Shown: piece by piece, positions 2 to 25,565 of the stretch | How positions within the stretch are numbered: position 1 is the first letter of the stretch | How the letters are laid out: every line of letters starts with the position of its first letter | Assembly (NCBI GenBank): GCA_029249445.1 | Contig: JAQWHI010000018.1 | Location: 1-64,000, forward strand | Direction of reading: 5' to 3' | DNA from: Crocinitomicaceae bacterium | GTDB taxonomy: Bacteria; Bacteroidota; Bacteroidia; Flavobacteriales_D; Crocinitomicaceae | Length of the DNA stretch: 64,000 nucleotides | Program-made: the position numbers and the translations under genes | The notes under the pieces: model-generated | What the model was told of the DNA's origin: nothing | Databases searched by the model: none | Seen by the model: the letters and a program-made list of their open reading frames with translations, nothing else

Positions 2-3000
2 CTTGCTGCGTCAGGCACAGGTGATATTTCGAGTTTTACAACAACGAATACAACCGCTTCAGCCATAGTTTCAACAATAACAGTTACACCATCAGCTAAT
101 AGTTGTGACGGTTCAGCGATAACATTTACAATTACAGTAAACCCAACACCATCAATAGTAGCTCAAACAACTGCTGTTTGTTCAGGGGTGGCATTCAGTG
201 TTGCTCCAGCAAATGGGTCAGGAAACATTGTTCCAACAGGGACAACATACGATTGGTCGGCACCAAGTGCAATAACAGGAATTTCTGGTTTGTCAGCAGC
301 TGGCACGCCTCAAACAACTATTGGAGGTACTTTGTCAAATTCGACAAACGCTCCAATCGATGTGATATATTCAGTAACACCAACAAGCGGTTCTTGTGAT
401 GGTGCTGCTTTCAATGTAATAGTAACGGTAAATCCTGCACCATTAGTAGCAGATCAAACTGTAACGAGTTGTTCAGGTTCTGCATTTACAGCTGCTCCTA
501 CAAATGGATCGGGGAATATTGTTCCATCTAATACAACCTACAGTTGGGCTGCACCTGCTGCCGTAACAGGAATAACAGGTTTGGCTTCAGGTACAACCGA
601 AACCAATTTTAATGGAAACCTCACGAATACAACAAATGCAGCAATCGTTGTCACGTACACAGTAACACCAACAAGTGGTACTTGTCAAGGTGCGACATTT
701 GATGTTGCCGTAACAGTTGATCCAACCCCATCAATAGCTGATGAATCAACAGCGATTTGTTCGGGAGATGCGTTTTCAGTTGTTCCATCTTCATCATCTG
801 CATCCAATGCAAGTGATTTATTTATATCTGAGTACGTGGAAGGTTCTAGTAATAATAAGTATATCGAGATTTTCAATGGAACGGGTGGTTCAGTCGATTT
901 AACTGATTACAGGTTACGTTTGTATTCGAATGGTGCCAACACTCCTAACAATGATGTAATTTTGTCCGGTACTTTAGCTAATAACAGTACTCTGGTTTAC
1001 AGGAACTCTTCTGCGACGGCCTACACAGGTACTTCGACTGTGAATGCAGCCGTTAGTTTTAATGGCGATGATGCCGTTGCTCTTTACAAGATTTCATCTA
1101 GTTCGTTTGTAGATGTCTTCGGTCGTATTGGAGATGATCCTGGATCGGCATGGTCTGCAGGTGGAAATAGTACCGCAAATAAAACACTCGTCCGAAATTC
1201 GAATATTACAGGTGGAGTTACGGCAAGTCCGACAGGAACAGGTGCTACGGCATTTACAACTCTAGCAACGGAGTGGAGTCAATCAAATCAAGATGACGTT
1301 AGTAATCTTGGATCTCATACTTACGGAACGAGTAACAGTAATATAATCCCTGCTGCTATAACTTATTCCTGGCCAGCTCCCGCTGCAATATCAGGAATTT
1401 CTGGTTTAGCTTCAGGTACGAATGAAACAACAATAGGCGGCACATTAACGAATTCAACCAATGCTGCGATACAAGTAACCTATGTAGTTACACCAACAAG
1501 CGGTTCTTGTGATGGTGCTGCTTTCAATGTAACAGTAACGGTAAATCCTACACCAGTAGTAGTAGATCAAACAGCTGCTGTTTGTACAGGGGTTGCATTC
1601 AGTGTTGCTCCAGCAAATGGATCGGGAAATATTGTTCCAGCGGGTACAACATATGATTGGTCGGCACCAAGTGCAATAACAGGAATTTCTGGTTTGTCTT
1701 CTGGTACGGCTGAAACAACTATCGGAGGTACTTTGTCAAATTCGACAAGTGCACCAATTGATGTTGTTTATTCAGTAACACCAACAAGCGGTTCTTGTGT
1801 AGGTTCTGCCTTCAATGTAACAGTAACGGTAAATCCTACACCAATAATATCTGACCAATCTACTTCAATATGTTCGGCATCAGCATATACTCTAGCGCCA
1901 ATAGACGGTGATAACGGAGATATCGTTCCATCAACAACAACATATAGTTGGGCTGCACCTGCGTCTGTAATAGGAATAACAGGTTTGGCTTCAGGTACAA
2001 GCGAAGTTAACTTCAATGGAACCCTTACGAATACAACAACATCAGCAATCTCGGTGACGTATGTAGTTACTCCAACAAATGGAACTTGTCAAGGTGCATC
2101 ATTTAATGTCGTTGTAACGGTAAATCCTACTCCAGTAGTAGCGGCAAAAACAGCAACAGTTTGTTCGGCAGATGCATTTTCAGTTGTACCAGTTGATGGT
2201 GTTTCTGGTGATATAGTACCCGCCGGTACAACATATGATTGGTCTGCACCTTCAGCCGTATCAGGAATAACTGGTTTATCTTCTGGGACAGCTCAATCTA
2301 CAATCGGGGGTACTCTAACCAATACTACGAATGCGCCAATAACTGTTATCTACAGTGTAACACCTTCAATTAGTAATTGTTCAGGGACAGCATTTGATGT
2401 AAGCGTTACCGTAAATCCGGTCCCAGATATTGCAGATGCAACCTTGAGTTCTTGTTCAGAATCAGTGTTTAGCTTCACGCCTTCTGGAACATCTGATATT
2501 ATTCCATCGGGAACGACATATACTTGGACATTTGCTGACAATCCATTTGTTGTAGGTGAAGTAAATCAAGCAACAGCTCAGACTTCATTGGATCAGACAT
2601 TATTGAACTTATCTTCAACTGCACAAACGGTTGTTTACACGGTCACTCCTACAAGCGGAACGTGTGTAGGAAATACATTTACATTAAGTGCAACGATCAA
2701 TCCATTACCTGTTGTTGCTGCAATTACAGGAGCATCGAGCGTATGTGTGGGATCAACGACTGTTTTAGCAAGTTCTACAACAGGTGGAGTTTGGTCTTCA
2801 AGTGATGCAACAGTTGCCGATGTGAGTGCAAGTGGAGTAGTTACAGGAGCATCAGCAGGTTCAGCAACGATAACATATGGTGTGACAATTAATGGATGTA
2901 CAACAACAACCTCAGCATCCATGACAGTGAATGCTTCACCGAGTGCTACAGTAACAGCATCAGGAGCGACAACATTCTGTGCAGGTGGCACAGTAGACTT

Positions 3001-7259: not shown

Positions 7260-7306
7260 TAGTGATTGTTGTATCTTTCTTCTGCTGTTATATGATATAC
7301 TACATT

Positions 7307-10300
7307 ATGTTATTCTCAAAATTCACTACATCTGTATTCGTATTATTTATGTGTACAAACCTAAATGCACAGGGGTGTGCGGATTTGGTTTTGGATGCAG
7401 GGGTTGACACCTCTATCTGCGGAGGACAAAATTATGTATTGGGAGGGACGCCATCAGCTCAATGGATTGGCATTGGAAATCCGACGTTAAATTACAATTG
7501 GTACAATTCAGCAAATACACTTTTAGCTAGTGTTTCCAATCCAGTAGTTGCAATCAATCAAGCGGATACATATATGCTGGTTGTAGATGATGGTGCAGGC
7601 TGTTCAGATACTGCTTATGTTACGATATCTGATTTGCCATCTCCTATTGCGGATTCTTTAGGAATGACCGGAAATACTTTTGGGAATTATCAAACTTTAC
7701 TTTATAATGGCGAATTGGTTTATCGAGTTTGTTTCAGTAATTCAAATTTCATTGGTAATGGTGACTTTACATTTACAGATCCTAACCTCTTGAATTACCC
7801 AATAGGTACTATTATGACCTGTGATTGGGGTGATGGAAATTTAGACACCTATACATACTCGGGCGCACCTATCAACATGATACACATCTATCCACCCGGT
7901 GATTATGACTTCACTTATTCTGTAACCTATCCATCATCGGGGTGTTTTTCTCAAGTTGATTTTAATGTATTCGTAGGAATTAGTCCCCCCGCTCTGTCTG
8001 TCAGTGGTTCCGGAAATGCTTTCTGTTTACCTCAGTTTTATCAGATCGATATTGGAGCTCCATTTGACCCAGCAGGAACTGTGTATAATATTCAAATCAA
8101 TGATGGTACAGACACCTCTTTTGTTGGTCTGCCATCAAACCCGTTTACATTTCAGCATTTATTTGCTTCAACGTCTTGCGGTGTCAATACATTAATAAAT
8201 AGTACGACTTATCAAGATTCATACTCTATCCAAGTAACGAGCTCCAATGGATGTAACTTGCAAGGAACCTTTGCTGCAATTGGTCCAATTCAAGTTGGAG
8301 AAAGTACGGATGCGGATTTTACACAGTCATCAGGTGAGGTTTGTGTTGGAGGAGAGGTCATTTTCAACAATACATCTGAAACAGGTTCGAATGTTTATCA
8401 GGCTGGTGGTTGTGATACTTTAACTGCTCTATATTGGGAGGTAACTCCCTCATCTGGTTTCACTGTATCCAATGGTGTTTTAGGGGCGAATAATGGATTT
8501 GACTATTTTCAAGTTTGGTCTTCAGGTACGGATCAACTTGATTTACAGTTCGATTCAACTGGAGTTTATGATATAACACTTTATATTGGAAACGAATGTG
8601 GTATTGATTCGTTAACACAACAAGTTTGTGTATTGCCTCAGCCTACTGCCAATTTTGATTTGAGTAATGATTCTTTTTGTACATCTGAATTGGTATCAAC
8701 TACCAACAACTCCGCTGGTCTAGCTTGTGGATTTCAGTTTGAATCAGATTGGCAAGTCACCTATGACAATCCCCTAAATTGTTCTCCCAATTCGGGTATG
8801 GATTTTGTGAACGGCACTGATACATCGTCTTTTGAACCTATATTGGATTTTACTGGCCCAGGGAATTACGAAATTACTTTAACAACTTCCTATCCTGGAT
8901 CAATTCCCGGCTGTCTTAGTGATCAGATGATAGATTCTGTTTTTGTGCAGTCTCCTCCCGAAATTCAACTTGTGCCTCTAGGAGATAGCATCTGTGAGGG
9001 AGAGGATGTTCAATTCACAGGCTCTGTTGTTGACTGCTACGATTCTACGACAATCTATACGTGGTATTTTGAAGTTGAACCTGGTATTTTAATTTTCAAT
9101 TCGTCGACATTAACTCCAAACGTAACATACAATACTTCAGGAACGTTTACCTATAGCCTAGAGGCAACAAATATATGTGGTAACAATATTATTATGGATT
9201 CAATTGTTGTTAATCCTGATGTATTTGTAGATGCTGGAACAAATCAGGCTGCTTGTTTGAATACAGTCCTTGACCTTAATGGTATAATTTCTGGTGGAAC
9301 AACTTCTGGAGTATGGTCAGCTAATGTTGCAGGGGGCTCTTTCGATGATCCGAACGCCTTAATTACGACTTACACACCACCAATTAATTTTAGTGGTCAA
9401 ATCACAATTACTCTAACTTCAATAGATCCTGTCGGCCCATGTCTGAGTAATTCGGATTCATTCATCTATACCATCAGTGATGAGGCCGTTGTTGACGCAA
9501 TGCCGGATGCAACGGTATGTGAAGGAGATCTTGTTACCTTGAACGCTTCATTACAAGGAGCTGCCTCAACTGCTACTTGGTCAGACAACGGAGCTGGAGG
9601 GCAGATAATAAACGAAAATCAGAGCACAGGATTTGCTCAATATATTTTGCCGAGTGGGGTGAATCAAGTTGTACTTTTTGTAGAGACTGATGTTCCCTCT
9701 CCGTTGTGCCCATCTGACATTGATTCTGTTGTTATAACAATTCTTGATCTTCCCACAATTTCGTCTCTATCAGACCAAACGGTATGTGACGGTTCAACTA
9801 CACAGGCAGTTGTTTTCAATGGTACAGGTACACAATACAGTTGGACCAACAGTGATCCGAGCATTGGTTTGGCCAGTTCAGGCTCTGGAGACATCGCACC
9901 ATTTACGGCGCAGAATGGAGGTCAGAATGCGGTGAATGCATTGATCACAGTGACGCCTGAGTATACAAGTGGCGGTGTGACGTGCCCTGGAAGTACAGAA
10001 GATTTTACCATTACAGTAAATCCATTACCAACGATCGATACGATTTCTGATCAAACATTCTGTGAAGGGGATCAGACCTTGTCTATTGATTTTACGAGTT
10101 CACCTGGTACTACATTTACATGGACCAACGACAATACACAAACAGGTTTGGGGGCATCAGGTTCAGGATCGATTCCTTCATTTACAACAATAAATGGCAC
10201 AACACAACCGGTGATTTCATTAATTACCGTAACACCGACATTGAATGGTTGTATTGGTCCCGATATGATATTTACACTCACTGTCAATCCTGTTCCAGTC

Positions 10301-13300
10301 GTTGATGCATTGCCTTCAATTGATACTTGTTCCGGGACATTGCTTTCTATCAGTTTTACTGGTACAGCAACACAATACAATTGGACGAACGACAATACAA
10401 CAATAGGTCTTGGTACTTCAGGTACTGGCACAATTGATTTTACGACACTCAATACGGGAACAAGTTCTGAGCTTGCAACAGTAGTTGTTACTCCGGGTTA
10501 TTTATTGAATAATTTACTCTGTTCGGGTTCTACAGAAACATTTACGATTACTGTACAGCCAGTTCCTCATGTTTTACCACTTCAAGATCAGACGATTTGT
10601 AATGGAGATCAAACCCAACTCGTATCTTTTGGATCTGATGTTTTAGGAACGAGCTATGCTTGGACCAATGACAACCCACAAATAGGCTTGTCTACAACAG
10701 GTTCACAAGACATTCCATCGTTTACAGGAACAAACTCAGGGAATACATCAATTGTGGGTACAATTACTGTAAGTCCATTTACAAATGGGTGTCCAGGTCC
10801 AGACAGTACACTTCAGTTTACAATTGATCCAACTCCTGTGATAACGACTTCACAGTTGTCAGATACACTTTGTTCTACAGATTCAAGTACTCCAGTTGCT
10901 TGGACATCGAATGTTATTGGAACGAGTTACACATGGACTGGTTCAATAACAAGTGGTTCATTGACCGGAGCAGTATTGAGCGGGACAGGTGACTTACAAA
11001 GTATGCAACTTACAAATACAGATTCTGTTCCTGCAGTAATTGTATATACTGTAACACCAGAAGCCAATGATTGTTCAGGTGGATCAATCACGTATACAAT
11101 TGTTGTGAATCCGATTCCTGGTCTTGATTCAATCGCTGCGGAGGTCATCTGTGGAGGAACATCTTTTACAGCACCTGTTTTCACATCAACTGTATCAGGA
11201 ACAAGTTATACATGGACTTTAGATCAGCCTGGTAATGTTCCAGCCACATTAACAGGTTATCAGTTGAGTGGGAGTGGAGCACTTCCATCTCAAACAATCA
11301 ATAATAGTGGCAATTCGCCATACACATTGGATTACATTGTTACTCCCACAGCGGATGGATGTATCGGTTTATCAGAAGTATTTTCTCTCACGATAAATCC
11401 TGCTCCGGTTGTTTCATTCAGCCTTCCTTCTCAAGTAATTTGTTCAGGAGATGTTAGTTCACAAGTAGTGTTGAGTTCTTTTACACCGAACGTTACTTTT
11501 GACTGGATAGCGAGTAGTGTTCCAGCTGGTGTTTCAGGTGTTTCCCCATTACAGGATACATCGAACATACCAAGCATGACTTTGACAAATAGTGGTGTCT
11601 CACCCGAAGTGGTAACGTTTATAGCGACAGCAACAACATCTGGAGGTGCTGCATGTCCGGGATCACCTACAAATTATACGATCACGATTAATCCAGTTCC
11701 ATCTGTATCGACGGTTACAGACCAAACGGTATGTGACGGTTCAACTACACAGGCAGTTGTTTTCAATGGTACAGGTACACAATACAGTTGGACCAACAGT
11801 GATCCGAGCATCGGTTTGGCCAGTTCAGGTTTTGGAGACATTGCACCATTTACAGCGCAGAATGGAGGTCAGAGTGCGGTGAATGCATTGATCACAGTGA
11901 CGCCTGAGTATACAAGTGGCGGTGTGACGTGTTCTGGAAGTCCATTTACATTCAGTTTTACTGTTGATCCGACTCCTTTTGTTAATCCCGTTGTTGATCA
12001 AGAATTATGTATTGGTGATCTTTCTCAACCGATTACATTTACAGGTACCGCCTCTAACTACAATTGGACGAATACAAATACAGCTTCCGGTGCCTCAGGA
12101 TCTGGGGTAGGGATTGTTAATTCGTTTGTAGCCCAGAACAATACGAATCAAGTGCTTACTTCATCTTTTGAGGTGATTCCTGAAGCGAATGGTTGTATTG
12201 GTTCTAGTATTTTCTTTGTGATAGACGTAAACCCTGAGACTTCAGTTAGTCCGATTGGTAATATGGAATTCTGTTCTGGAGATCAAACTTCTATTGTTTC
12301 ATTTAGCGGTGGCGGCTTGTCATATTCATGGACGAATGACACTCCTTCTATTGGCTTACCTGCTTCAGGTGTGGGACCGATTGCTTCATTCACTGCTACG
12401 AATGGCACGAATGTTCCACTTCAAGCGACCATAACTGTAACTCCATTATTTGTAGGAGGTTTAACCTCATGCCCAGGTAGTTCGACTCAGTTCACGATTA
12501 CTGTGAATCCGATACCAACAGTTTTACCCGTTGCTGATCAAGTAATCTGTAATGGTTCGTCTTCACAAGCGGTTCAATTTTCAGGAACAAATGCTTCTGC
12601 TTTTCAATGGACTGCAAGTTCGACATCAATAGGTATCCCTGCAAGTGGAACGGGCACAATTCAATCGTTTACAACTGTCAATTCAGGGAGTAATTCTGAA
12701 ATTTCAAATGTAGTTGTTACGCCTGAATTGGCGAGCAATGGGCTGGTCTGTTTCGGTTCGCCCGAATCATTTGATTTTATAATTAATCCAAGTCCTTCAG
12801 TTACTGCGATAAGCGATATTCTTGTTTGTGAAGGAGAAACTGTCCCTTCGACTTTGATAACGGGTAATGCTACATCATTCGACTGGACTTCAGCACCTTC
12901 CAATACTGGAGTTCAGACTTCTGGGAGCGGAAACATTCCATCATTTGTAGCCATTAATTCAACCAATCAACCGATCAGTGATGTTATGACGATAACTCCG
13001 AATTTCAGTGGTTCTGGCTTATCCTGCCCGGGTGTGCCTCTATCGTTTACGGTTACTGTCAATCCATTACCAGAGGTTGATCCACTTTCTGATCAAGTTT
13101 TGTGCAGCGGTTCGAGTACGAGTCCAGTTCTTTTCAATGGAACAGCAACAAATTATGCATGGACGAATAGTGCCCCTTCAATTGGTCTGCTTTCCTCTGG
13201 GAATGGTGATATCTCATCTTTTACGGCTGGAAATTTAGGACAATCTGAAGTTGTTTCGATTTTTGAAGTAACTCCTGAATACACTGCGGGTGGACTAACT

Positions 13301-16300
13301 TGTATTGGAAATCAAGAGTTATTCACGATAACCGTCAATCCAACTCCTATTATTGATCCACTGTCTGATTTGGCAAGTTGTTCAGGTGACGATATTGGAC
13401 CGATTATCTTTACTGGGATTTCTACCTCATTTAATTGGACGAATACCAATACGGGAATAGGTATTCCATCGAGTGGTACAGGTAATATTGGAATTGTCAA
13501 CTACAGTAATACGGGCGCGGTAACCGAAAATACAACAATTACGGTAACACCTGAATATACATTTGCAGGTCTGACATGTATTGGTTCTAGTGAAAGTTTT
13601 TCTATTGGAGTTTTGCCGAATCCTACAATAAACTCAATACCTGATTACACCTATTGTAATAATGAATCAACGGTGCCAGTCAATTTTAGTGGTTTAGCAA
13701 CTGAGTTCACTTGGACGAATACGAATCCACAAATTGGTCTTGCCTCAAATGGAGTGGGAGATATTTCTTCTTTTACTGTGATAAATGGTGGTGGTGCTGT
13801 TGAAACAGCATCTGTTTCTATAACACCAGGATATACTGATATTGGTATCACATGTCAAGGGACTCCACAACTTTTCAATATTACTGTGAATCCAGCACCT
13901 ACTATTAATTCTGTTCCAGATTTAATTGTGTGCAATGGGGATCAAGTATCAGCAATTAATTTCTCAGGTACGGCGACCAACTTCAGTTGGAGCAATTCTG
14001 AACCATCTATCGGTCTACTCAATTCAGGCAATGGAAATATTTCCTCATTTTCGGCAATCAATACAGGCATTACTCCAATTACCGCTACTATTACAGTTGA
14101 ATCTTCTTTTGGTTCAAATGGTGTTCAGTGCACAGGAATTACGGAATCATTTACTATAACGGTTAATCCAACACCGACCGTTGATCCGATTGCGGATCAA
14201 GTTGTATGTGATGGTGCATCGACCAATACAGTTACATTAACAGGTTCTGGGACATCATATACATGGACAAATACATTGCCATCGATAGGTATATCCTCGA
14301 ATGGTACAGGAGACATACCTGCATTCAGTGCACTAAATACAAGCAGTCTTCCAGTTACGGCCAATTTTACAGTTGTACCTGTTGCTTTACAATGTTCAGG
14401 AACTGCAGAACTTTTTTCTCTGACAGTAAATCCAACACCAACTGTCGATCCAATTGCATCAATAGAGGGATGTACTGGAGTGGTTCAGCCCGTAATTCAA
14501 CCAACAGGAAACTTTTCATCTATATCATGGACGAACTCAAATGCAACCATCGGTATTCCTTCTTTTGGAACTGCTCAGATTCCATCCTTTACCTTAAGTA
14601 ATCCATCAAATGCGACTGTCAATCAATCCGTCGTAATATTTACACCGATCAATACCAATGCAGGCGTTCAATGTTTCGGATTACAAACACAATTTGATAT
14701 TTCCGTCAATCCATCGCCTGAGGCTGATCCGATTGCTGATATTGAATTGTGTAACGGAGAGAGTTCCTCAATTGTAAGCCTTACTGGTTCCGGAAGCTTC
14801 TATGAGTGGACAAATAGCAACCCGAGTATTGGATTGGCAGGTGCTGGAAATGGAGATGTTCCAGTTTTCAATGCGACCAATACTCAAAATAGTGATACGA
14901 CTGCTTTGATCTCTGTGACACCAATCTATCAATCGAGCAGTGGACAGTTGTGTTCAGGAACAGGAACAGATTTCAATTTTATAGTGCATCCTTCACCATT
15001 AATTGATACAGTTGGTATAGCGACGGTATGCAGTGGAGATGATCTTAATGTGAATTTAAGTGCATCCGTTCCTTCCTTGATTTCTTGGTCAGCGATTGAT
15101 AATCCTGATGTTTTGGGAGAGAGTACTTTCCTTCAAACATTGCCAACGATAAACAATACATTAACTAACAATGTAGCGACAATTGAATCGGTTACTTATG
15201 AGGTGAGTGCAAACTCTTTACCTTATGGATGTGTAGGTCCTACCTATTCTTTTGACGCTTTGGTGATACCGGAAGTTTTTATTACAAGCAGTCCTACTAT
15301 AGAAATTTGTAGTGGTGTCTCAGCGTCTGTATTCCTGACTACAAACATTCCTTCAGATTTTATTTGGTTTGCTACTGATAACCCAAATGTAATAGGAGAA
15401 TCGCAGGTGTTTGGAACAGGTAATATTATAAATGATGTACTCATCAATACGTCATTAACCCCTCAAATTGTTGTTTACAGTGTGATTCCAACTTCGCAGC
15501 AAGGAGCATGTCAAGGTCTTGCTCAGACCGTCTCTGTTCTGGTGAATCCTCCAATTGAGTTGATCAGTCCACTTAGTTCCGAGATTTGTTCCGGAGATGT
15601 TGTAGATATGAATTTGGTGGCAAATGCGAATGTTAATTTCAGCTGGTTTGCGCAAAGTTCACTCGAGGTAAATGGTGAGAGTTTAACGATTCAAAATGGA
15701 AGTGTTATTGATGACCAACTAGAAAATACAACCTTGGTTCCTCAGTCTGTTTTTTATACAGTTGTAGCTACAACACAAGCGAACGGGTGTTCAAGTCCGA
15801 GTACGCAAGTTGAAGTTGTTGTAAATCCAGTACCTGTTGTAGATCCGTTGAATGTGGTGCTTTGTAGCGGTGAAACTGTGAATGCGGGGTTAACAGCCTC
15901 AAGCACATCTTCTTTTGAATGGTATGCAGATCCAAATAATAATGTAACAGGGGAGACGCAAATCCCGCAAAACACATCGCTAATTAATGATCAGTTAATA
16001 AACTCTGGAGTAGTAGCAGAAACGGTACTTTATTCGATTCAGGCAACTTCTGATAAGGGGTGTGTTGGACCAATACTCGTGCAACCTGTACTTGTGAATC
16101 CACTTCCTGAGGTTGACTTTATAATCTCCAATCAGATCCTTTGTGAAATTGATTCTATTTATTTTGTGAACAATTCAAATCCAGCTTACAGTTTTTTATG
16201 GGACTTTGGTGATGGTGATTCGTCGTCAGTATTTGAACCTTCTCATATTTATGGAGCAACAGGCAATTATACGGTCACGCTAACTGCTGTAGATCCCCAA

Positions 16301-17140
16301 ACAAATTGTATAAACATCGATGAAAGTAATGTTTTAATTCAGGACAGTCCGCCTGTAGACTTTGCTGTGAATCAGACAGAAGGATGTATTCCTGCTAATT
16401 TTGTATTTACGGATCTCAATAATTTACCAGATGTGGACGTTGTTTGGGACTTTGGTGACGGGCAGTTGTCAAATCAGCCGGGATCTATTGATCACACATA
16501 CGCCGATACGGGATGTTTTACAGTTACTCTGACGGCAACCAACGCCATTGGATGTGTTAGTACTTTTTCAAATACTGACATGGTATGCGTTTACGAAAAT
16601 CCAATTGCCTTTTTTACAGCAGAAGAGACAATTGTTCCTGCTGACGATCCTTTCGTCTACTTCATAAACAACTCTCAATACGCAGACACCTACGTTTGGG
16701 ACTTTGGTGATGGAGCAACAAGTTTTTCTGAAAACCCAGTTCACTTATACCCACAGGGTGCAGCAAATTATGAGGTTCTTCTTACTGCATCGAATGCTTC
16801 AGGTTGTTTTGATCAATTTGTGCTCACAATTGTTCTTTGGGAAGAAGAGCTGATCTATGTGCCGAACTCGTTCACGCCAAATGGAGATGGTTCTAACGAT
16901 ATATTCAAACCCATTATCACGGCAGGTTTCGATAAAGAGAGCTATCAACTGTTGATTTTTAACCGTTGGGGTGAAATGGTTTTTGAATCCTATGACCCAA
17001 ATGTTGGTTGGGATGGTACTTTTGGTACATCTCAAAGTTTTGAATCTCAAGACGGTACGTATACATGGAGAATTACTCTGAGAGGTTTGCAGGATGAAGA
17101 TGCTACATTATTTTTAGGTCACGTCAATTTATTGAAATAA
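7307..17140 (+). CDS. Giant T9SS-secreted adhesin with about 23 PKD-like repeats
   Basis: A surface protein of about 3277 residues. The frame is open from a GTG at 7262, but ATG 7307 gives the best signal peptide (MLFSKFTTSVFVLFMC, cleavage near LNAQ), so I chose it. The N-terminal 800 residues are varied, Cys-containing PKD-like segments. From about residue 815 to 2930 come about 23 tandem repeats of 90-100 residues, each with C(S/N/D)G near the start, WTN in the middle and ITVNPxP at the end. Then come three classical PKD domains (WDFGDG at about residues 2963, 3045 and 3128) and a C-terminal CHU_C sorting domain (SFTPNGDGSNDIF, FNRWGEMVFES). It is probably exported by T9SS and acts in adhesion or gliding. 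Repeat conservation without frameshifts shows it is under selection. It has no PorP/SprF gene of its own. Confidence 0.9.
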   Translation: MLFSKFTTSVFVLFMCTNLNAQGCADLVLDAGVDTSICGGQNYVLGGTPSAQWIGIGNPTLNYNWYNSANTLLASVSNPVVAINQADTYMLVVDDGAGCSDTAYVTISDLPSPIADSLGMTGNTFGNYQTLLYNGELVYRVCFSNSNFIGNGDFTFTDPNLLNYPIGTIMTCDWGDGNLDTYTYSGAPINMIHIYPPGDYDFTYSVTYPSSGCFSQVDFNVFVGISPPALSVSGSGNAFCLPQFYQIDIGAPFDPAGTVYNIQINDGTDTSFVGLPSNPFTFQHLFASTSCGVNTLINSTTYQDSYSIQVTSSNGCNLQGTFAAIGPIQVGESTDADFTQSSGEVCVGGEVIFNNTSETGSNVYQAGGCDTLTALYWEVTPSSGFTVSNGVLGANNGFDYFQVWSSGTDQLDLQFDSTGVYDITLYIGNECGIDSLTQQVCVLPQPTANFDLSNDSFCTSELVSTTNNSAGLACGFQFESDWQVTYDNPLNCSPNSGMDFVNGTDTSSFEPILDFTGPGNYEITLTTSYPGSIPGCLSDQMIDSVFVQSPPEIQLVPLGDSICEGEDVQFTGSVVDCYDSTTIYTWYFEVEPGILIFNSSTLTPNVTYNTSGTFTYSLEATNICGNNIIMDSIVVNPDVFVDAGTNQAACLNTVLDLNGIISGGTTSGVWSANVAGGSFDDPNALITTYTPPINFSGQITITLTSIDPVGPCLSNSDSFIYTISDEAVVDAMPDATVCEGDLVTLNASLQGAASTATWSDNGAGGQIINENQSTGFAQYILPSGVNQVVLFVETDVPSPLCPSDIDSVVITILDLPTISSLSDQTVCDGSTTQAVVFNGTGTQYSWTNSDPSIGLASSGSGDIAPFTAQNGGQNAVNALITVTPEYTSGGVTCPGSTEDFTITVNPLPTIDTISDQTFCEGDQTLSIDFTSSPGTTFTWTNDNTQTGLGASGSGSIPSFTTINGTTQPVISLITVTPTLNGCIGPDMIFTLTVNPVPVVDALPSIDTCSGTLLSISFTGTATQYNWTNDNTTIGLGTSGTGTIDFTTLNTGTSSELATVVVTPGYLLNNLLCSGSTETFTITVQPVPHVLPLQDQTICNGDQTQLVSFGSDVLGTSYAWTNDNPQIGLSTTGSQDIPSFTGTNSGNTSIVGTITVSPFTNGCPGPDSTLQFTIDPTPVITTSQLSDTLCSTDSSTPVAWTSNVIGTSYTWTGSITSGSLTGAVLSGTGDLQSMQLTNTDSVPAVIVYTVTPEANDCSGGSITYTIVVNPIPGLDSIAAEVICGGTSFTAPVFTSTVSGTSYTWTLDQPGNVPATLTGYQLSGSGALPSQTINNSGNSPYTLDYIVTPTADGCIGLSEVFSLTINPAPVVSFSLPSQVICSGDVSSQVVLSSFTPNVTFDWIASSVPAGVSGVSPLQDTSNIPSMTLTNSGVSPEVVTFIATATTSGGAACPGSPTNYTITINPVPSVSTVTDQTVCDGSTTQAVVFNGTGTQYSWTNSDPSIGLASSGFGDIAPFTAQNGGQSAVNALITVTPEYTSGGVTCSGSPFTFSFTVDPTPFVNPVVDQELCIGDLSQPITFTGTASNYNWTNTNTASGASGSGVGIVNSFVAQNNTNQVLTSSFEVIPEANGCIGSSIFFVIDVNPETSVSPIGNMEFCSGDQTSIVSFSGGGLSYSWTNDTPSIGLPASGVGPIASFTATNGTNVPLQATITVTPLFVGGLTSCPGSSTQFTITVNPIPTVLPVADQVICNGSSSQAVQFSGTNASAFQWTASSTSIGIPASGTGTIQSFTTVNSGSNSEISNVVVTPELASNGLVCFGSPESFDFIINPSPSVTAISDILVCEGETVPSTLITGNATSFDWTSAPSNTGVQTSGSGNIPSFVAINSTNQPISDVMTITPNFSGSGLSCPGVPLSFTVTVNPLPEVDPLSDQVLCSGSSTSPVLFNGTATNYAWTNSAPSIGLLSSGNGDISSFTAGNLGQSEVVSIFEVTPEYTAGGLTCIGNQELFTITVNPTPIIDPLSDLASCSGDDIGPIIFTGISTSFNWTNTNTGIGIPSSGTGNIGIVNYSNTGAVTENTTITVTPEYTFAGLTCIGSSESFSIGVLPNPTINSIPDYTYCNNESTVPVNFSGLATEFTWTNTNPQIGLASNGVGDISSFTVINGGGAVETASVSITPGYTDIGITCQGTPQLFNITVNPAPTINSVPDLIVCNGDQVSAINFSGTATNFSWSNSEPSIGLLNSGNGNISSFSAINTGITPITATITVESSFGSNGVQCTGITESFTITVNPTPTVDPIADQVVCDGASTNTVTLTGSGTSYTWTNTLPSIGISSNGTGDIPAFSALNTSSLPVTANFTVVPVALQCSGTAELFSLTVNPTPTVDPIASIEGCTGVVQPVIQPTGNFSSISWTNSNATIGIPSFGTAQIPSFTLSNPSNATVNQSVVIFTPINTNAGVQCFGLQTQFDISVNPSPEADPIADIELCNGESSSIVSLTGSGSFYEWTNSNPSIGLAGAGNGDVPVFNATNTQNSDTTALISVTPIYQSSSGQLCSGTGTDFNFIVHPSPLIDTVGIATVCSGDDLNVNLSASVPSLISWSAIDNPDVLGESTFLQTLPTINNTLTNNVATIESVTYEVSANSLPYGCVGPTYSFDALVIPEVFITSSPTIEICSGVSASVFLTTNIPSDFIWFATDNPNVIGESQVFGTGNIINDVLINTSLTPQIVVYSVIPTSQQGACQGLAQTVSVLVNPPIELISPLSSEICSGDVVDMNLVANANVNFSWFAQSSLEVNGESLTIQNGSVIDDQLENTTLVPQSVFYTVVATTQANGCSSPSTQVEVVVNPVPVVDPLNVVLCSGETVNAGLTASSTSSFEWYADPNNNVTGETQIPQNTSLINDQLINSGVVAETVLYSIQATSDKGCVGPILVQPVLVNPLPEVDFIISNQILCEIDSIYFVNNSNPAYSFLWDFGDGDSSSVFEPSHIYGATGNYTVTLTAVDPQTNCINIDESNVLIQDSPPVDFAVNQTEGCIPANFVFTDLNNLPDVDVVWDFGDGQLSNQPGSIDHTYADTGCFTVTLTATNAIGCVSTFSNTDMVCVYENPIAFFTAEETIVPADDPFVYFINNSQYADTYVWDFGDGATSFSENPVHLYPQGAANYEVLLTASNASGCFDQFVLTIVLWEEELIYVPNSFTPNGDGSNDIFKPIITAGFDKESYQLLIFNRWGEMVFESYDPNVGWDGTFGTSQSFESQDGTYTWRITLRGLQDEDATLFLGHVNLLK
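9771..9994 (+). repeat. 224-bp direct repeat, copy 1
   Basis: Matches 11718-11941 with no gaps and 8 differences that I counted by eye, all of them transitions. It encodes one PKD-like repeat starting DQTVCDGSTTQAVVFNGTG. The other repeats of the gene are far more diverged, so this pair is recent. Confidence 0.9.
11718..11941 (+). repeat. 224-bp direct repeat, copy 2
   Basis: Second copy of the repeat at 9771-9994, 1947 bp downstream in the same frame. It is the eighth PKD-like unit of the array, while the first copy is unit one. Confidence 0.9.
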
Positions 17141-19327: not shown

Positions 19328-19951
19328 ATGAAAAAAGAAGATATCTTAGCGGCTTATTCGGAGTTCATAACAAAGCATAACAAACGTCCATTAAACATGG
19401 CGACTTTCGCAGAAAGCTTGAAAATAAGTGAAGTAGAGATTTATGAGTTCTACTCAGACTTTAGTGTCATGGATGCTGAAATAATGAATCATTTCATTCT
19501 TAATGCAATCGATCTCACAAAAAAGAGCAGCGATCAGGGCGAGAGCAATAAAGAAATCCTTTTGATTTTTTATTACACTTTGGTGGAGGTGCTGAAAGCG
19601 AATAGGTCATTGATTCTTTTCTTATTGCCTGTTAATCAAGGAGCACTGAATGGAATTAAGGCCTTGTCTTCTTCGAAGAAAAGTTTCTTGGATTTTATAG
19701 AAGAGAATGAGTTTGATACAAATGCGTTTCAATTTCTTCCTGACGGCTCAATAAAGACAAACGTAATTAAAACTGGTGCTTGGGTGCAGTTCTGTTCCAT
19801 ATTGATGTATTGGCTGAAGGACACTTCTCCGGATTTTGAGAAAACTGATTTATTCATCGAAAAAAGCCTTAAGTTATCCTTTGATATAGTCGATTCAAGT
19901 GTAGCTGAGAGTTTTATTGATTTTGGAAAATTTATGTTCAGTAAATCATGA
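19328..19951 (+). CDS. TetR-family transcriptional regulator
   Basis: A 207-residue regulator heading the photolyase operon. The N-terminal 50 residues form the TetR helix-turn-helix (NMATFAESLKISEVEIYEFY); the family signature is weak in the first helix but the F..FYSDFS pattern is typical. The remainder is helical and would bind a ligand or form the dimer. The next gene, an ABC1-type kinase, overlaps by 4 bp (ATGA), so both are translated together. It probably represses its own operon from the inverted repeat that overlaps the -7 box. The inducing signal cannot be read from the sequence; the operon's content suggests light, oxidative or quinone-type stress, which is inference. Confidence 0.85.
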   Translation: MKKEDILAAYSEFITKHNKRPLNMATFAESLKISEVEIYEFYSDFSVMDAEIMNHFILNAIDLTKKSSDQGESNKEILLIFYYTLVEVLKANRSLILFLLPVNQGALNGIKALSSSKKSFLDFIEENEFDTNAFQFLPDGSIKTNVIKTGAWVQFCSILMYWLKDTSPDFEKTDLFIEKSLKLSFDIVDSSVAESFIDFGKFMFSKS

Positions 19952-21267
19952 AGACACTGGATTATATCCCTCAAACCAAAATTCAAAGAGCTGGAAAACT
20001 ATTAAAAATAGGTGCTCAGGTTGGGAAGAATTATGCCAAATATGTTGGCAATCGAATAATACTCTCTGAGGACGATGCGCGGAACAAGCTGAATTCCGCG
20101 AATGCTACGAATATTTATGACGGCCTATCAGAACTCAAGGGAAGTGCATTAAAGATGGCGCAAATGATGAGTTTGGACGATGGCTTGTTACCGAAAGAAT
20201 TTGTAGAGAAATTTTCTCTTGCCCAGTTCAGTGTTCCACCGCTTTCTGGACCGCTTGCACGAAAAGTCTTTAGAAAGAATATGGGAAGAAATCCAGAAGA
20301 GGTTTTTTCATCATTTGAGAGAGAAAGTAGTTATGCGGCAAGCATCGGACAGGTGCATCTTGCAGAGATTGATGGCAATAAGGTCGCCGTTAAAATTCAA
20401 TACCCAGGAGTTGCGCAAAGCATAATTAGTGATTTAAAGCTCGTAAAGCCAATAGCGCTGCGGATGCTGAAGTTGAAGAATGATGAAGTGGAAGAGTATT
20501 TCGAGGAAGTACAGCAAAAATTATTGGAAGAAACGAATTACGAACTCGAAAAAGAGAATTTAGAAGAGGCACGTGACCTATCGAGTGTCTTGCCGAATAT
20601 TGTCATTCCGAAGATTTACGATTCTTACTCAGGGAAGAGTGTATTGACAATGGAATGGATGGAAGGGCTTCATTTATCTGAGTTCTCCAAACAACAAGTG
20701 TCGCTCGAGGAGCGCAATTTAATAGCACAGTCCTTGTGGGACTTTTATCTCTTTCACATTCACAATTACAAAAAAGTCCACGCCGATCCTCACCCCGGAA
20801 ATTTTAAAGTAAATCCACAAAATGAACTTGTTGTTTTGGATTTTGGCTGTATGAAAGACATTCCTCAGGATTTTTATAATTCCTTTTTCAAATTGGCGGA
20901 TTTAAAAAATGTGCATGATGACTGCGTGTTCGAAGAAGTGCTGAAGGAACTGGATATCATAACAGAAAATGACAATGCAAAAGCGATTGAGACAATTAAG
21001 TCCACATTTAAAAAAATGCTTTGCATCATTAACAAACCTTTTCAATACGAAAAGTTTGACTTTAGTGATCCTGCTTATTATCAAGAACTCCTCATTTTAG
21101 GCAATGAATTGAAAAATGATGAAACATTAAAAAGTCTCAATGGCAAGAGAGGTTCAAAGCACTTTGTTTATGTAAATCGTACGCTAATTGGGCTTCTAGG
21201 TCTAATGAATTCACTAAATGCCGGTGACATTCTTGTTGACAACTACATGACGTACTCCAAAAAATAA
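19948..21267 (+). CDS. ABC1/AarF/UbiB-family atypical kinase
   Basis: A 439-residue member of the ABC1 (AarF/UbiB/COQ8) family of atypical kinases or ATPases. Visible motifs are the N-terminal K-x-(G/A)-Q signature, here KMAQ from Lys69, the nucleotide loop AASIGQVHLA with VAVKIQYPG, the catalytic HADPHPGNF (His278) and metal-binding DFG (Asp298). The usual Gly of KxGQ is Ala. Family members support quinone or isoprenoid lipid metabolism; no quinone gene is adjacent, so the partner here is unclear. The gene overlaps TetR by 4 bp and precedes the DUF2805 gene by 6 bp. In Bacteroidota I recall this subfamily sitting beside photolyase genes, which agrees with this operon. Confidence 0.9.
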   Translation: MKTLDYIPQTKIQRAGKLLKIGAQVGKNYAKYVGNRIILSEDDARNKLNSANATNIYDGLSELKGSALKMAQMMSLDDGLLPKEFVEKFSLAQFSVPPLSGPLARKVFRKNMGRNPEEVFSSFERESSYAASIGQVHLAEIDGNKVAVKIQYPGVAQSIISDLKLVKPIALRMLKLKNDEVEEYFEEVQQKLLEETNYELEKENLEEARDLSSVLPNIVIPKIYDSYSGKSVLTMEWMEGLHLSEFSKQQVSLEERNLIAQSLWDFYLFHIHNYKKVHADPHPGNFKVNPQNELVVLDFGCMKDIPQDFYNSFFKLADLKNVHDDCVFEEVLKELDIITENDNAKAIETIKSTFKKMLCIINKPFQYEKFDFSDPAYYQELLILGNELKNDETLKSLNGKRGSKHFVYVNRTLIGLLGLMNSLNAGDILVDNYMTYSKK

Positions 21268-21273
21268 ATACAA

Positions 21274-21543
21274 ATGAATCCAGGGGACATCGATAGGGTA
21301 ATTGAAATGGCATGGGAAGACCGTACACCGTTCGAAGCGATTAAATTTCAATTTGAACTCTCTGAAGCTGAAGTAATTGCACTGATGAGAAAAGAGCTGA
21401 AATCGAGTTCCTTCAAACTATGGAGAAAACGTGTGAACAGCGGTATAAGTTCTAAGCATGCCAAAAAACGAAGTGAAGACATCACACGATTTAGATGTTC
21501 ACGGCAAAAAAGTATCGCGAACAACAAAATTTCAAAAAGATGA
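21274..21543 (+). CDS. DUF2805 / TIGR03643 family small protein
   Basis: An 89-residue protein of the DUF2805 (TIGR03643) family. Recognition rests on DIDRVIEMAWEDRTPFEAI, EAEVIALMRKEL and SSFKLWRKRV, which look like a small helix-turn-helix-like helical bundle. The C-terminal 30 residues are rich in Lys, Arg and Ser. Function is unknown. The stop codon overlaps the next start codon (ATGA at 21540-21543), so it is coupled to the first photolyase homologue. The short size and basic tail could suit nucleic-acid binding, but that is speculation. Confidence 0.85.
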   Translation: MNPGDIDRVIEMAWEDRTPFEAIKFQFELSEAEVIALMRKELKSSSFKLWRKRVNSGISSKHAKKRSEDITRFRCSRQKSIANNKISKR

Positions 21544-22634
21544 ATTTCCCAACAGACATTGGAGCTATAGAAGACCGGTTGAATCGATTCAATCCAGTAA
21601 GTTATGCGAAATCAAGAAATTATTTGGACGGAAATGTTTCTTATTTGAGTCCGTATATAGCAAGAGGTGTTATCTCAACAAAACAAGTTGCGGATAGAAT
21701 GATGGAGCGAAACTTGCCTTGGTATACAATTGAAAAATATATTCAGGAGTTGGCGTGGCGCGACTATTGGCAGCTCACGTGGAAGTATTCTGAAAAGAGC
21801 ATCGATGACGATTTTAAGCATGTCCAAACGGATGTATCAAATCATTTAATGCCAGAAGCAATTCAGAAAGGTACTACAGGAATAGTTGCGATTGATTCGG
21901 CCATAGCGGAATTTTATGAAACAGGATACATGCACAACCACATGCGTATGTACATCGCATCAATCTGTTGTAACATCGCAAAATCACATTGGAGCGTTCC
22001 TGCAAAGTGGTTGTATGCTCATTTGTTGGATGGCGATGCGGCGAGCAATCAATTGAGTTGGCAGTGGGTAGCTGGGACATTTTCTGGAAAAAAGTATTAT
22101 GCCAATCAAGAAAACATCAACCGCTATTGTCATAGTAGTCAAACTGCTACATTCCTTGATGTTCCTTACGAAGCATTTGATGTCTTGCCAATTCCAGAGG
22201 TGCTTTCAGTGCTCGATTCGTTTGAAATGAGAACAGATTTGGACGTTTCAAATCCAACTTTGATTGATGGTAAAAGAACGTTGATTTACAATTACTACAA
22301 TCTTGATCCCTCATGGTACGCAGATACTGATGTTCAACGTGTTTTATTATTAGAACCTACCCATTTCGAGAAGTATCCTATCTCTAAAAAATGCATCGAT
22401 TTCATGATGGACTTATCTAAAAACATCAAGAACATTCAGGTATTTGTTGGTGAGTTTGTTGAATTGAAAGCAGCATTAAACAACTCAGAGTTGGTATTTA
22501 AGGAGCATCCGACAAGCAGTCATTACAAAGGGACGGAAGAGTCACGAGCATGGCTTACTGATGTTACCGGTACTTACAATTCGTTTTTTGCATATTGGAA
22601 AAGAGCGAAAAAGCAGCTCAAATATGAATCGTGA
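21540..22634 (+). CDS. Photolyase-like FAD protein, apparently circularly permuted
   Basis: A 364-residue flavoprotein of the photolyase/cryptochrome superfamily. It lacks the usual N-terminal antenna domain and begins directly with the FAD-binding helical domain (residues about 1-210: SYLSPYIARGVIS, QELAWRDYW, TGYMHNHMRM, LDGDAASNQLSWQWVAG). The family WQW (Trp174, Trp176) and the Asn of the MHN motif (Asn133) are retained. Residues about 243-330 resemble the missing Rossmann antenna domain (TLIYNYYNLDPSW, RVLLLEPTHFEKYP, NIQVFVGEF), now at the C-terminus. ATG 21540 gives the ATGA overlap with the DUF2805 gene; an upstream ATG (21495) would add 15 residues. DNA repair or light sensing is plausible but not proven. 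Confidence 0.85.
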   Translation: MNFPTDIGAIEDRLNRFNPVSYAKSRNYLDGNVSYLSPYIARGVISTKQVADRMMERNLPWYTIEKYIQELAWRDYWQLTWKYSEKSIDDDFKHVQTDVSNHLMPEAIQKGTTGIVAIDSAIAEFYETGYMHNHMRMYIASICCNIAKSHWSVPAKWLYAHLLDGDAASNQLSWQWVAGTFSGKKYYANQENINRYCHSSQTATFLDVPYEAFDVLPIPEVLSVLDSFEMRTDLDVSNPTLIDGKRTLIYNYYNLDPSWYADTDVQRVLLLEPTHFEKYPISKKCIDFMMDLSKNIKNIQVFVGEFVELKAALNNSELVFKEHPTSSHYKGTEESRAWLTDVTGTYNSFFAYWKRAKKQLKYES

Positions 22635-24084
22635 AATCAATATTGTATGGATCAAACGCGATTTAAGACTGAGTGACCACGCTTCCTTTGGCGAGGCGGA
22701 ACAGTCTGATCTAGATTACCTTCCGATTTATATTTTCGAGCCCTCATTTTTCGAAGCAGACGACTACTCAGACCGGCATGGACAATTCATATTTCATTCA
22801 TTGAAAGTAATGAATGAAAGCCTTTCCAGTGTTCAGCGTGAGGTCATTTGTTTTTGTGCGCCTGCGGAAACAGTTTTTCATTACTTGTCCTCAGAATTTC
22901 TTGTGAATTCCGTCTTTTCCTATCAAGAAAGCGGAACACGCAAAACATGGGATCGCGATAAGGCGGTGGCTCAACTTCTGAATGAAAAAGGGATCGCTTG
23001 GAAACAATTTCAGAGGGATGGAATTATAAGAGGAATTACAAATAGAAAGCATTGGGACCAGGGCTGGTTTCAGGTGATGGAGGCACCTCTCATAAATAAC
23101 AACTATTCAACAGGATCGCTCCATCTTGAGAGAAATCCGTTTCCGTTGGATGAAGCACGAATGAAGGTATTGGAAGAATATAGTGAACACTTTCAAATCC
23201 CAGGAGAAATTGCGGCAATGAAGTACCTTCACTCTTTTTGCAAAGAACGAGGAAAGAATTACAGCCGTCACATTTCCAAACCAACGGAGAGTCGTTTGTC
23301 CTGTGGGCGCATTTCTCCTTATTTGGCGTGGGGAAACCTAAGCGTACGTCAGGCCTATCAATATGTCAATCTTCACGAGAATTATCAGAAAAACAAAAGA
23401 AGCTTTAATGGTCTACTTACGCGGTTAAAATGGCGGTGTCATTTTATTCAAAAGTTTGAAAATGAATGTGATTATGAACTGCGTTGCGTGAACAAGGGCT
23501 ATGAAACATTAAAGCATGAGAACAATGCGAATTTGATTGAGGCATGGAAGCACGGCACCACGGGATTTCCACTTGTCGATGCGTGCATGAGGTGTCTAAA
23601 AACTACAGGCTGGATCAATTTTCGGATGCGGGCGATGCTTGTTTCGATTTTTTGCCATCATTTTAATTGCGATTGGAAAAAAGGGACGTATCACCTTGCA
23701 CAGTTGTTTCTCGATTATGAACCTGGGATTCATTTTACGCAATTTCAAATGCAGGCGGGTACTACGGGTATCAATACGGTTCGAATTTACAATCCAATAA
23801 AGCAATCAAAAGATCATGATCCAAAAGGAATTTTTATCAAGAAGTGGGTACCCGAATTGGAATCGATTCCGGAGGAATTCATTCATGAACCTTGGAACAT
23901 GACTCCCTTGGACCGTGCATTTTCAGGTGTTGAGATCGATTATCCAAGTCCCGCAGTGGAATTGTTAGAATCTGGACGAATGGCTCGCAAGCGAATATGG
24001 GGACATCGCCGTAACACTGATGTAAAGAATGAAAGTCGCAGGATACTTCAGCGGCATGTTAGAAATAGTAAAAAAAGAAAGTAA
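22624..24084 (+). CDS. Cryptochrome/photolyase with altered flavin pocket
   Basis: A 486-residue protein with the full classical layout. An N-terminal Rossmann antenna domain (NIVWIKRDLRLSDHASF, YIFEP) is followed by the FAD domain (RLSCGRISPYLAWGNLSVR, TGFPLVDACMR, RIYNPIKQSKDHDPKGIF, KKWVPEL). Compared with E. coli PhrB, WMHNRLRM reads WINFRMRA, so the flavin-contacting Asn is Phe333, and WQWAASTG reads FQMQAGTTG (Phe374, Met376), so the flavin-proximal Trp is lost. The Trp of EAWxxGxTG and of DWKKG are kept. It may be a divergent photolyase or a photoreceptor. ATG 22624 overlaps the preceding gene by 11 bp; the next gene overlaps its stop by 1 bp (TAATG). Confidence 0.88.
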   Translation: MNREINIVWIKRDLRLSDHASFGEAEQSDLDYLPIYIFEPSFFEADDYSDRHGQFIFHSLKVMNESLSSVQREVICFCAPAETVFHYLSSEFLVNSVFSYQESGTRKTWDRDKAVAQLLNEKGIAWKQFQRDGIIRGITNRKHWDQGWFQVMEAPLINNNYSTGSLHLERNPFPLDEARMKVLEEYSEHFQIPGEIAAMKYLHSFCKERGKNYSRHISKPTESRLSCGRISPYLAWGNLSVRQAYQYVNLHENYQKNKRSFNGLLTRLKWRCHFIQKFENECDYELRCVNKGYETLKHENNANLIEAWKHGTTGFPLVDACMRCLKTTGWINFRMRAMLVSIFCHHFNCDWKKGTYHLAQLFLDYEPGIHFTQFQMQAGTTGINTVRIYNPIKQSKDHDPKGIFIKKWVPELESIPEEFIHEPWNMTPLDRAFSGVEIDYPSPAVELLESGRMARKRIWGHRRNTDVKNESRRILQRHVRNSKKRK

Positions 24085-25565
24085 TGAGTCATTCAATCAA
24101 TCTTGTATTCCCTCATCAATTGTTTGCAGATAGTACGCTTGTGAAGAATGGATTCGACACCTATTTGATTGAGGAATTTTTGTATTTCCGACAGTACAAG
24201 TTTCACAAACAGAAGATTACATTTCATAGAGCAGCGATGAAGTCCTATGAGAGTTATTTGACTTCCCAAGGAGTCACTGTACATTATATTGAATCGGGGA
24301 GTGCTCTTTCTGATGTGCGCAATTTTGGTGAAGAATTAAAGCGTTGTGCAATCAAAGAACTACATTTCATAGATCCAACAGACAACTGGTTGCGAAAAAG
24401 AGTTTTGGCACTTTCGAACGAATGTGAGATTACAATGCACACCGATTTGAACTTTATGAACACACCGGATGATTTGAAGTCCTTTTTTAAGCCAACTAAA
24501 AAATCATTTTTCCAAACAAGTTTCTACAAGCAGCAACGGAAGAAGTTTGGAGTTTTGCTCGATGAAGAATTCCAACCAGTAGGAGGGAAGTGGACCTACG
24601 ACGCTGACAACAGAAAAAAATATCCAAAAAATAAAGTACCTCCTGCCATTCACTTTCCTAAAAAAAGCTCATTCTGGGATGCGGCTATAATCTATACTGA
24701 GAAGCATTTTTCAGATTACCCAGGTACTATTTCGATGGATTATCGTTATCCAATTAACCATGCAGAGGCTGCTGCATGGCTCGAGCAGTTTTTGACCTAT
24801 CGCTTTCATGAGTTTGGTCCCTATGAGGATGCAATAGTGCAGGAGCATTCGATATTGAATCACAGTCTGCTTTCTCCGCTGATGAATTCAGGTTTGTTAT
24901 TGCCCGAATATGTTGTCAATAGAGCACTTGAATTTAGTGTGGCCGAGAATGTACCCATTAATTCAACGGAGGGTTTTGTTCGTCAGGTAATTGGTTGGCG
25001 TGAGTTTATACGTGGAATGTATGCGGTAAAGGGAACAGAGTCAAGAACAATGAATTTTTGGAAGTTCGATCGAAAAATACCACAATCATTCTACGATGGT
25101 ACCACAGGAATTGTTCCAGTAGATAATGCGATTAAAAAAGCACTTGACACGGGATATTGCAATCATATCGAGCGTTTAATGATTCTTGGCAATTTTATGT
25201 TGTTGTGTGAATTCGATCCCGATGAAGTGTTCCGTTGGTTCATGGAATTGTTCATTGATGCTTACGATTGGGTGATGGTACCAAATGTCTATGGGATGTG
25301 TTTGTTTGCGGACGGTGGATTTTTCGCTACAAAACCTTACATCAGTGGGGCGAATTACATTAAAAAAATGAGCAACTTTAAAGGTGGCGAATGGGAGGCG
25401 ATTTGGAATGGTTTATTTTGGAATTTTATAGACAAACACCAGGATTTTTTCAGTTCAAATCCTCGAATGAGCATGATGGTCCATTCGCTCCGTCGTATGT
25501 CGCCAGACAAAAAAGTAATGCATTTGACTTCTGCTGAGCAGTTTCTCGGAGCGTTGGATGTTTGA
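24084..25565 (+). CDS. Cryptochrome/photolyase-related (DPRP, COG3046) protein without Fe-S cysteines
   Basis: A 493-residue member of the photolyase-related family that includes the bacterial (6-4) photolyases PhrB/CryB. Typical segments are VFPHQLFADS at the N-terminus, HRAAMKSYE, VRQVIGWREFIRGMY, TGYCNHIERLMILGNFMLL, ADGGFFATKPYISG. In A. tumefaciens PhrB four Cys bind a [4Fe-4S] cluster. Here Cys359 lies in the GYCNH motif, but between MSN (from residue 429) and FWNF there is only FKGGEWEAIWNGL, with none of the three C-terminal cysteines. The Fe-S cluster is therefore probably absent. Last gene of the operon, ending 39 bp before a convergent gene. Repair of (6-4) photoproducts is possible. 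Confidence 0.88.
   Translation: MSHSINLVFPHQLFADSTLVKNGFDTYLIEEFLYFRQYKFHKQKITFHRAAMKSYESYLTSQGVTVHYIESGSALSDVRNFGEELKRCAIKELHFIDPTDNWLRKRVLALSNECEITMHTDLNFMNTPDDLKSFFKPTKKSFFQTSFYKQQRKKFGVLLDEEFQPVGGKWTYDADNRKKYPKNKVPPAIHFPKKSSFWDAAIIYTEKHFSDYPGTISMDYRYPINHAEAAAWLEQFLTYRFHEFGPYEDAIVQEHSILNHSLLSPLMNSGLLLPEYVVNRALEFSVAENVPINSTEGFVRQVIGWREFIRGMYAVKGTESRTMNFWKFDRKIPQSFYDGTTGIVPVDNAIKKALDTGYCNHIERLMILGNFMLLCEFDPDEVFRWFMELFIDAYDWVMVPNVYGMCLFADGGFFATKPYISGANYIKKMSNFKGGEWEAIWNGLFWNFIDKHQDFFSSNPRMSMMVHSLRRMSPDKKVMHLTSAEQFLGALDV

Follow-up and report, generated by a model that had tools for sequence, protein, structure and literature searches.

The order of the domains in photolyases was long regarded as fixed. 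Proteins of the NewPHL/SPL (short photolyase-like) group were reportedly described by Emmerich et al. in 2020 and by Xu et al. in 2021. An inverted topology is reported for these proteins (PMC13274461), and a reverse domain order has also been published for the Phr4/5/6 photolyases (PMC9426592). In the Phr4/Phr5 and Phr6 proteins of Synechococcus and Cyanobium the FAD-binding domain precedes the photolyase domain, and the two are encoded either by two adjacent genes or by a single one. A photolyase homologue with its FAD-binding domain first was found in a 64,000-nucleotide stretch of Crocinitomicaceae DNA (hereafter, the window). The first-pass annotation of this DNA held that all known photolyases have the opposite order, a statement that the two publications above contradict. 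We therefore consider the protein a new member, from a Bacteroidota clade, of the already published NewPHL/SPL class rather than a new invention, a reading to which we give a probability of about 0.7. No description of this clade was met in the portions of the literature searched, and Xu et al. 2021 may cover it.

The protein has 364 amino acids and is encoded on the forward strand at 21540-22634, with an ATG at 21540 and the stop codon at 22632-22634. An alternative, longer start is present at 21495; the 80 homologues that were kept align from residues 1-3. The start overlaps by 4 bases the stop codon of the gene directly upstream (21274-21543), which codes for a small DUF2805/TIGR03643 protein (PF10985, E 9.4e-35; TIGR03643 above cut-off). 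Before it lie the gene for an ABC1/UbiB-type atypical kinase (19948-21267; PF03109, E 4.3e-59) and, overlapping the latter by 4 bases, that of a TetR-family regulator (19328-19951; PF17931), which is probably the first of the operon. Downstream, and with an 11-base overlap, there is a conventional photolyase/cryptochrome with the DNA_photolyase domain followed by FAD_binding_7 (22624-24084) and then a DPRP, or prokaryotic 6-4 photolyase-type, protein (24084-25565; PF04244, E 5.8e-54). As these six forward-strand genes follow one another from 19328 to 25565 with overlaps or a 6-base gap between neighbours, they look, from their arrangement, like one operon, in which three photolyase-family genes have three different architectures. 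A fourth photolyase-family gene is found elsewhere in the source genome. The TetR-UbiB-DUF2805 order recurs in two Hanstruepera loci (L043 and L066). With regard to the DPRP protein, the 60 residues that follow KPY, where we take the Fe-S ligands of FeS-BCP to lie, contain no C-x2-C...C motif in it or in any of its 50 checked homologues. Farther upstream, the window also holds a 3292-amino-acid ORF built of many similar segments (7262-17140), perhaps of a secreted or gliding-related type.

The FAD-binding helical domain comes first, as had been claimed, and takes up residues 1-214 (21540-22181, forward strand). PF03441 (FAD_binding_7) matches residues 68-185 with an E of 7e-23, covering only positions 2-124 of the 203 in the profile, and the AlphaFold2 model is helical up to residue 214. 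When the protein or its 74-row profile (alignment A1, that is, the protein and 73 of the 80 kept homologues) was compared with the photolyases in the PDB, the match covered residues ~20-187 at best, and no photolyase or cryptochrome chain in the phmmer list was matched before its own position 196. Thus, there is no antenna domain ahead of the FAD domain. The same is seen in the open reading frames of the relatives, in which the FAD match starts at residue 85 or earlier in those of the reversed type, and no earlier than residue 210 in the frames of conventional and DPRP proteins (frames cut by the end of a locus were set aside; the exceptions are two Acidobacteria frames that are extended far ahead of the normal start). 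These two extensions, considered as a possible second antenna domain, were rejected by eye, being arginine-rich, repetitive-looking and ahead of the start. The FAD domain of the DPRP protein aligns with residues 3-195 (E 1.8e-11).

The flavin residues named in the first-pass annotation (N133, W174 and W176) are indeed identical in all 74 aligned rows, as are E70, W73, W151 and N170, while M137 is found in 73 of them. In the alignment with the E. coli enzyme (1dnp), they correspond to N341 (N133), W382 (W174), W384 (W176), E274 (E70), W277 (W73), W359 (W151), N378 (N170) and M345 (M137). We take these E. coli positions to form the lesion pocket, the N5 contact and the electron chain. The position of E. 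coli W306 falls in an alignment gap, which leaves a tryptophan dyad formed by W174 and W151. Class I CPD photolyases, such as those of E. coli and A. nidulans, share the residues of the FAD domain with our protein, but they have the third tryptophan (W306) and an antenna domain that comes first and is larger. In the prokaryotic 6-4 photolyases/FeS-BCP it is the DPRP domain that comes first; PF04244 has no match in our protein at E ≤ 1. By the DASH cryptochrome model TIGR02765, the protein scores 72.8 bits, against a cut-off of 317.05.

The protein shows the features of the NewPHL/SPL class that could be followed by sequence. The FAD domain is N-terminal, without an antenna domain before it, and a second domain follows. 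A tryptophan dyad is described for the D. shibae NewPHL (PMC8948257), and W174 and W151 are its counterparts in 74/74 rows; likewise, NewPHL is said to keep the N5 asparagine (PMC12083526), which corresponds to the invariant N170. There are also differences. In one paper, SPLs are described as having an Fe-S cluster and no alpha/beta domain (PMC9649867), from which the Bacteroidota clade departs. Similarly, Phr4 and Phr6 carry four Fe-S cysteines (PMC9426592), whereas no C-x2-C motif was found within 60 residues after YYANQ in the 64 rows that could be checked (the other 16 of the 80 lack this anchor). The protein itself has four cysteines in all (positions 143, 144, 197 and 285), none of them in a C-x2-C arrangement. 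The clade is, consequently, not of the Phr4/Phr6 type and, by this feature, lies nearer to Phr7/NewPHL. Additionally, the part after the FAD match has ~130-140 residues in most Bacteroidota-type frames, compared with ~180-190 in the alphaproteobacterial relatives. One Bacteroidota-type homologue (L156, 3056-4297), with a frame of 414 amino acids, has extra inserts between and within both parts.

A relative from Ruegeria TM1040 served as a stand-in for a characterised NewPHL, its orthology to the D. shibae protein being presumed; we take D. shibae to belong, like Ruegeria TM1040, to the Roseobacteraceae. A PDB search with this relative gave 26 sequences at E ≤ 0.001, all of them conventional photolyases or cryptochromes matched through the FAD part, and no solved inverted photolyase was recognised among them. 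In a tree of FAD domains with 58 rows, for which the DPRP and P0002-type pieces were roughly cut, the Bacteroidota-type proteins form a clade of their own (support 100/98), distinct from the other reversed relatives. The 22 reversed or split rows, a sample that leaves the characterised NewPHLs outside, group together with a support of 86/37, the SH-aLRT value of 37 being weak. Reversed and split rows, together with DPRP, are separated from the conventional photolyases with a support of 99/97, with a warning from the tree program about long branches coming together where DPRP is joined.

Across the genome collection, relatives of any length are encoded at 310 loci. The best 80 of these, which match from residues 1-3 to 348-364, come mostly from Bacteroidota, with two from Acidobacteria and one from an Akkermansiaceae bin. 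A match spanning both parts was found in 16 of 198 Bacteroidota genomes, the source genome included, while a seventeenth (G101) has only a 78-residue piece; such recurrence of both parts indicates that the two-domain layout is not due to chance. The C-terminal domain was detected at E ≤ 0.01 in 31 of the 247 genomes of the class, in 29 of them within open frames of 363-457 amino acids and in the other two (G853 and G872) as fragments. When 96 genomes from the same phylum as the Akkermansiaceae bin were searched, only the bin's own gave a full-length match. As for mobile elements, 171 plasmid records match, two of them (both from Persicobacter) with 80% or more of the query covered; ten phage records have a match to the FAD part, none reaching 80% of the query, and two viral contig scans confirmed none.

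Some of the neighbours also recur. DUF2805 is encoded directly upstream in 54 of the 79 homologous loci with enough flank, and in 51 of 70 loci a DPRP protein is encoded no more than 4 kb downstream. A conventional photolyase lies directly downstream in 14/70 loci, and UbiB in the available flank of 2/72. In 17 loci without a conventional photolyase, more than 400 bases separate the homologue from DPRP, and each of the six such gaps that were inspected codes for a similar protein of ~210 amino acids. The one that was scanned (L003, 7123-7749) is flavin reductase-like (PF01613, E 1e-13). In two alphaproteobacterial plasmids, from Ruegeria and Peteryoungia, a gene for an ABC1/UbiB kinase adjoins that of the reversed photolyase (L085, 2947-5549, and L113, 602-3143). 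A marine metagenome paper places DUF2805 among translation-linked domains (PMC3597751).

What follows the FAD domain is more difficult to identify. The model obtained with the 74 rows (pLDDT 93.2, pTM 0.91) predicts, after the last helix of the FAD domain, strands at 247-251 and 266-271, helices at 273-278 and 283-293, a strand at 299-303, a helix at 306-313, strands at 318-321 and 332-334 and a final helix at 349-359, with block pLDDT values of 91-97 across residues 241-360. The same elements were predicted when the domain (residues 243-359; 22266-22616, forward strand) was folded in isolation with 23 rows (pLDDT 86.5, pTM 0.73). The possibility that this part is the ordinary tail of a FAD domain was discarded, both by this folding as a separate alpha/beta domain and by the comparison of its profile with the FAD parts of the two operon neighbours, neither of which it matches (P 0.085 and 0.18). 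With the whole model, Foldseek gave 85 matches at E ≤ 0.001, the best being 1iqr (E 3.6e-8), and the best 50 of the 85 are photolyases and cryptochromes aligned over 195-264 columns. As Foldseek aligns in sequence order, such matches should reflect mainly the FAD part, and the two domains of a reversed protein could not both appear in them. The search with the isolated domain, which had been suggested in the first-pass annotation, gave 772 matches at E ≤ 10, none of them at E ≤ 0.001 and with no photolyase among the best 50. They are headed by an ornithine carbamoyltransferase (E 0.035) and a phosphopantetheine adenylyltransferase (0.040), followed by other alpha/beta proteins. Thus, although the search did not recover a photolyase, the predicted fold is of the alpha/beta class and not an unrelated one. 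A sequence search of the PDB with the profile of this domain gave no match at E ≤ 10.

The link with the antenna domain comes from the relatives. In the one from Deinococcus AJ005, FAD_binding_7 is followed by a below-threshold match to DNA_photolyase (PF00875, E 7e-4), which reaches 7.8e-5, also below cut-off, when the C-terminal part is used alone. Similar values, also below cut-off, were obtained for the second of the two separate genes of Deinococcus QL22 (E 2.3e-4) and for a stand-alone Acidobacteriota gene (E 6.9e-5); the C-terminal part of D. wulumuqiensis gives an E of only 0.22, and PF00875 has no match in the alphaproteobacterial relatives L085, L087 and L113. A profile of five Deinococcus/Acidobacteriota C-terminal domains matches that of 30 conventional N-terminal domains with an E of 4.8e-12. 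Among 396 Acidobacteriota genomes searched with a five-row alignment of such domains, eight were detected at E ≤ 0.001, three through close stand-alone relatives and five through conventional photolyases, that is, frames bearing a FAD domain (L160-L164). In turn, the domain of our protein matches a six-row Deinococcus/Acidobacteriota set over 96 columns (P 0.0011), a result that none of 300 column shuffles equalled, and an alphaproteobacterial-type set with one shuffle in 300 as good; as column shuffling removes local order, this null is a lenient one. Six alphaproteobacterial-type domains likewise match the six-row set (E 4.8e-6, 0/300 shuffles) and the conventional N-terminal domains (P 0.0024, 0/300). 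Compared directly, by contrast, the domain has no significant match to the conventional N-terminal domains (20/300 shuffles as good) or to those of its two operon neighbours (20/300 and 11/300). Among the control comparisons, the N-terminal domain of the P0002 type was found (8.4e-18), but that of DPRP was missed against the conventional ones (P 0.038), so the method is weak at such distances; in a shallow first version of the direct comparison, the positive control had failed as well.

The relation is, consequently, transitive: the domain matches the intermediates and these match antenna domains. From these profiles there is moderate support for considering it a photolyase antenna domain in reduced form. 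The earlier description of a Rossmann-like segment resembling the antenna domain at residues ~243-330 stands with regard to an alpha/beta domain after the FAD domain, while the antenna identity is reached only through intermediates. It has to be weighed against a rather unlikely alternative, in which the FAD domain would be truly NewPHL-like and the second domain an unrelated Rossmann/HUP-like one recruited independently. The direct comparison would be explained in this way, and so would the top of the isolated-domain search, with ornithine carbamoyltransferase, adenylyltransferases, methyltransferases and a universal stress protein, all at E of at least 0.035. Against this, the match to the Deinococcus/Acidobacteriota domains extends over 96 columns, includes a shared FxxFWK-like end motif and was equalled by none of the 300 shuffles, and those domains match conventional antenna domains at 4.8e-12. 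HUP-like is, moreover, the class of the photolyase antenna domain, and similarities of this kind could also come from a degraded one.

The most likely function of the protein is the flavin-dependent repair of CPDs, perhaps in single-stranded DNA. FADH- in the first domain would be excited by near-UV or blue light and would pass an electron to the pyrimidine dimer bound in the conserved pocket (E70, W73, N133, M137 and W176), while the flavin would be reduced through the chain of two tryptophans, W174 and W151. By analogy with the characterised NewPHLs, the substrate would probably be CPDs in single-stranded DNA. For the second domain, which is short and most likely derived from the photolyase antenna domain, a role in structure or in DNA contact seems likelier than the classical antenna one. 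An improbable alternative is that the protein no longer repairs DNA and has become a sensor of blue light or a regulator, as its operon includes a TetR regulator, two other photolyase-family genes stand beside it and the third tryptophan of the electron chain is missing. However, 73-74 of the 74 rows retain the residues of the lesion pocket, and a dyad is what has been reported for the D. shibae NewPHL (PMC8948257).

How the reversed order arose may be considered from relatives in which the two domains are encoded separately. In Deinococcus QL22 (L111), the gene of the FAD protein (1896-2669) overlaps the adjacent one (2666-3187), which codes for the alpha/beta protein. In two Acidobacteriota genomes, the FAD protein and an alpha/beta protein of 150-152 amino acids are encoded far apart on one contig, at 1582817 and 2573802 in G323 and at 1098867 and 2548857 in G296, that is, ~1.0 and 1.45 Mb from each other; a third Acidobacteriota genome (G459) holds the alpha/beta gene. 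Within the loci, the split-domain genes lie at 3297-3749 (L150), 3367-3825 on the reverse strand (L151), 2969-3751 (L153) and 1896-3187 (L111). These layouts mirror that of phr4/phr5 in marine Synechococcus (PMC9426592). Given such separate genes, a fusion in the opposite order is a likelier origin than a circular permutation; they suggest that two partners were joined in that order, the loss of a fusion being also possible. Thus, of the circular permutation proposed in the first-pass annotation, the reversed order is real, while the permutation itself fits these relatives less well than a fusion does. A literal one, by tandem duplication of a conventional photolyase gene and loss of the outer halves, is highly improbable: the FFAYWK motif at the end of the second domain does resemble the one that closes the antenna domain in conventional enzymes, but the separate genes of Deinococcus QL22 and two Acidobacteriota make a fusion in the other order simpler.

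Returning to fusion in the opposite order, a broader and tentative proposal is that photolyases began as an ancient partnership of two subunits, one a FAD protein and the other an alpha/beta protein, and that fusions in either order then took place independently. Steps of this process would still be visible in the reversed class, with unlinked genes in some Acidobacteriota, adjacent and overlapping ones in Deinococcus QL22, a fusion in other Deinococcus and, in Bacteroidota, a fused protein with a shrunken second domain, whose partners in a light-repair module might be DUF2805, a DPRP photolyase and either a flavin reductase or a UbiB kinase. The reversed class shows, in any case, that the order of the domains in photolyases is not fixed, and with the split-gene relatives one can ask which of the arrangements is the older. 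The Bacteroidota clade represents a compact version of these enzymes with a frequent partner, DUF2805, which can consequently be tested as a photorepair factor.
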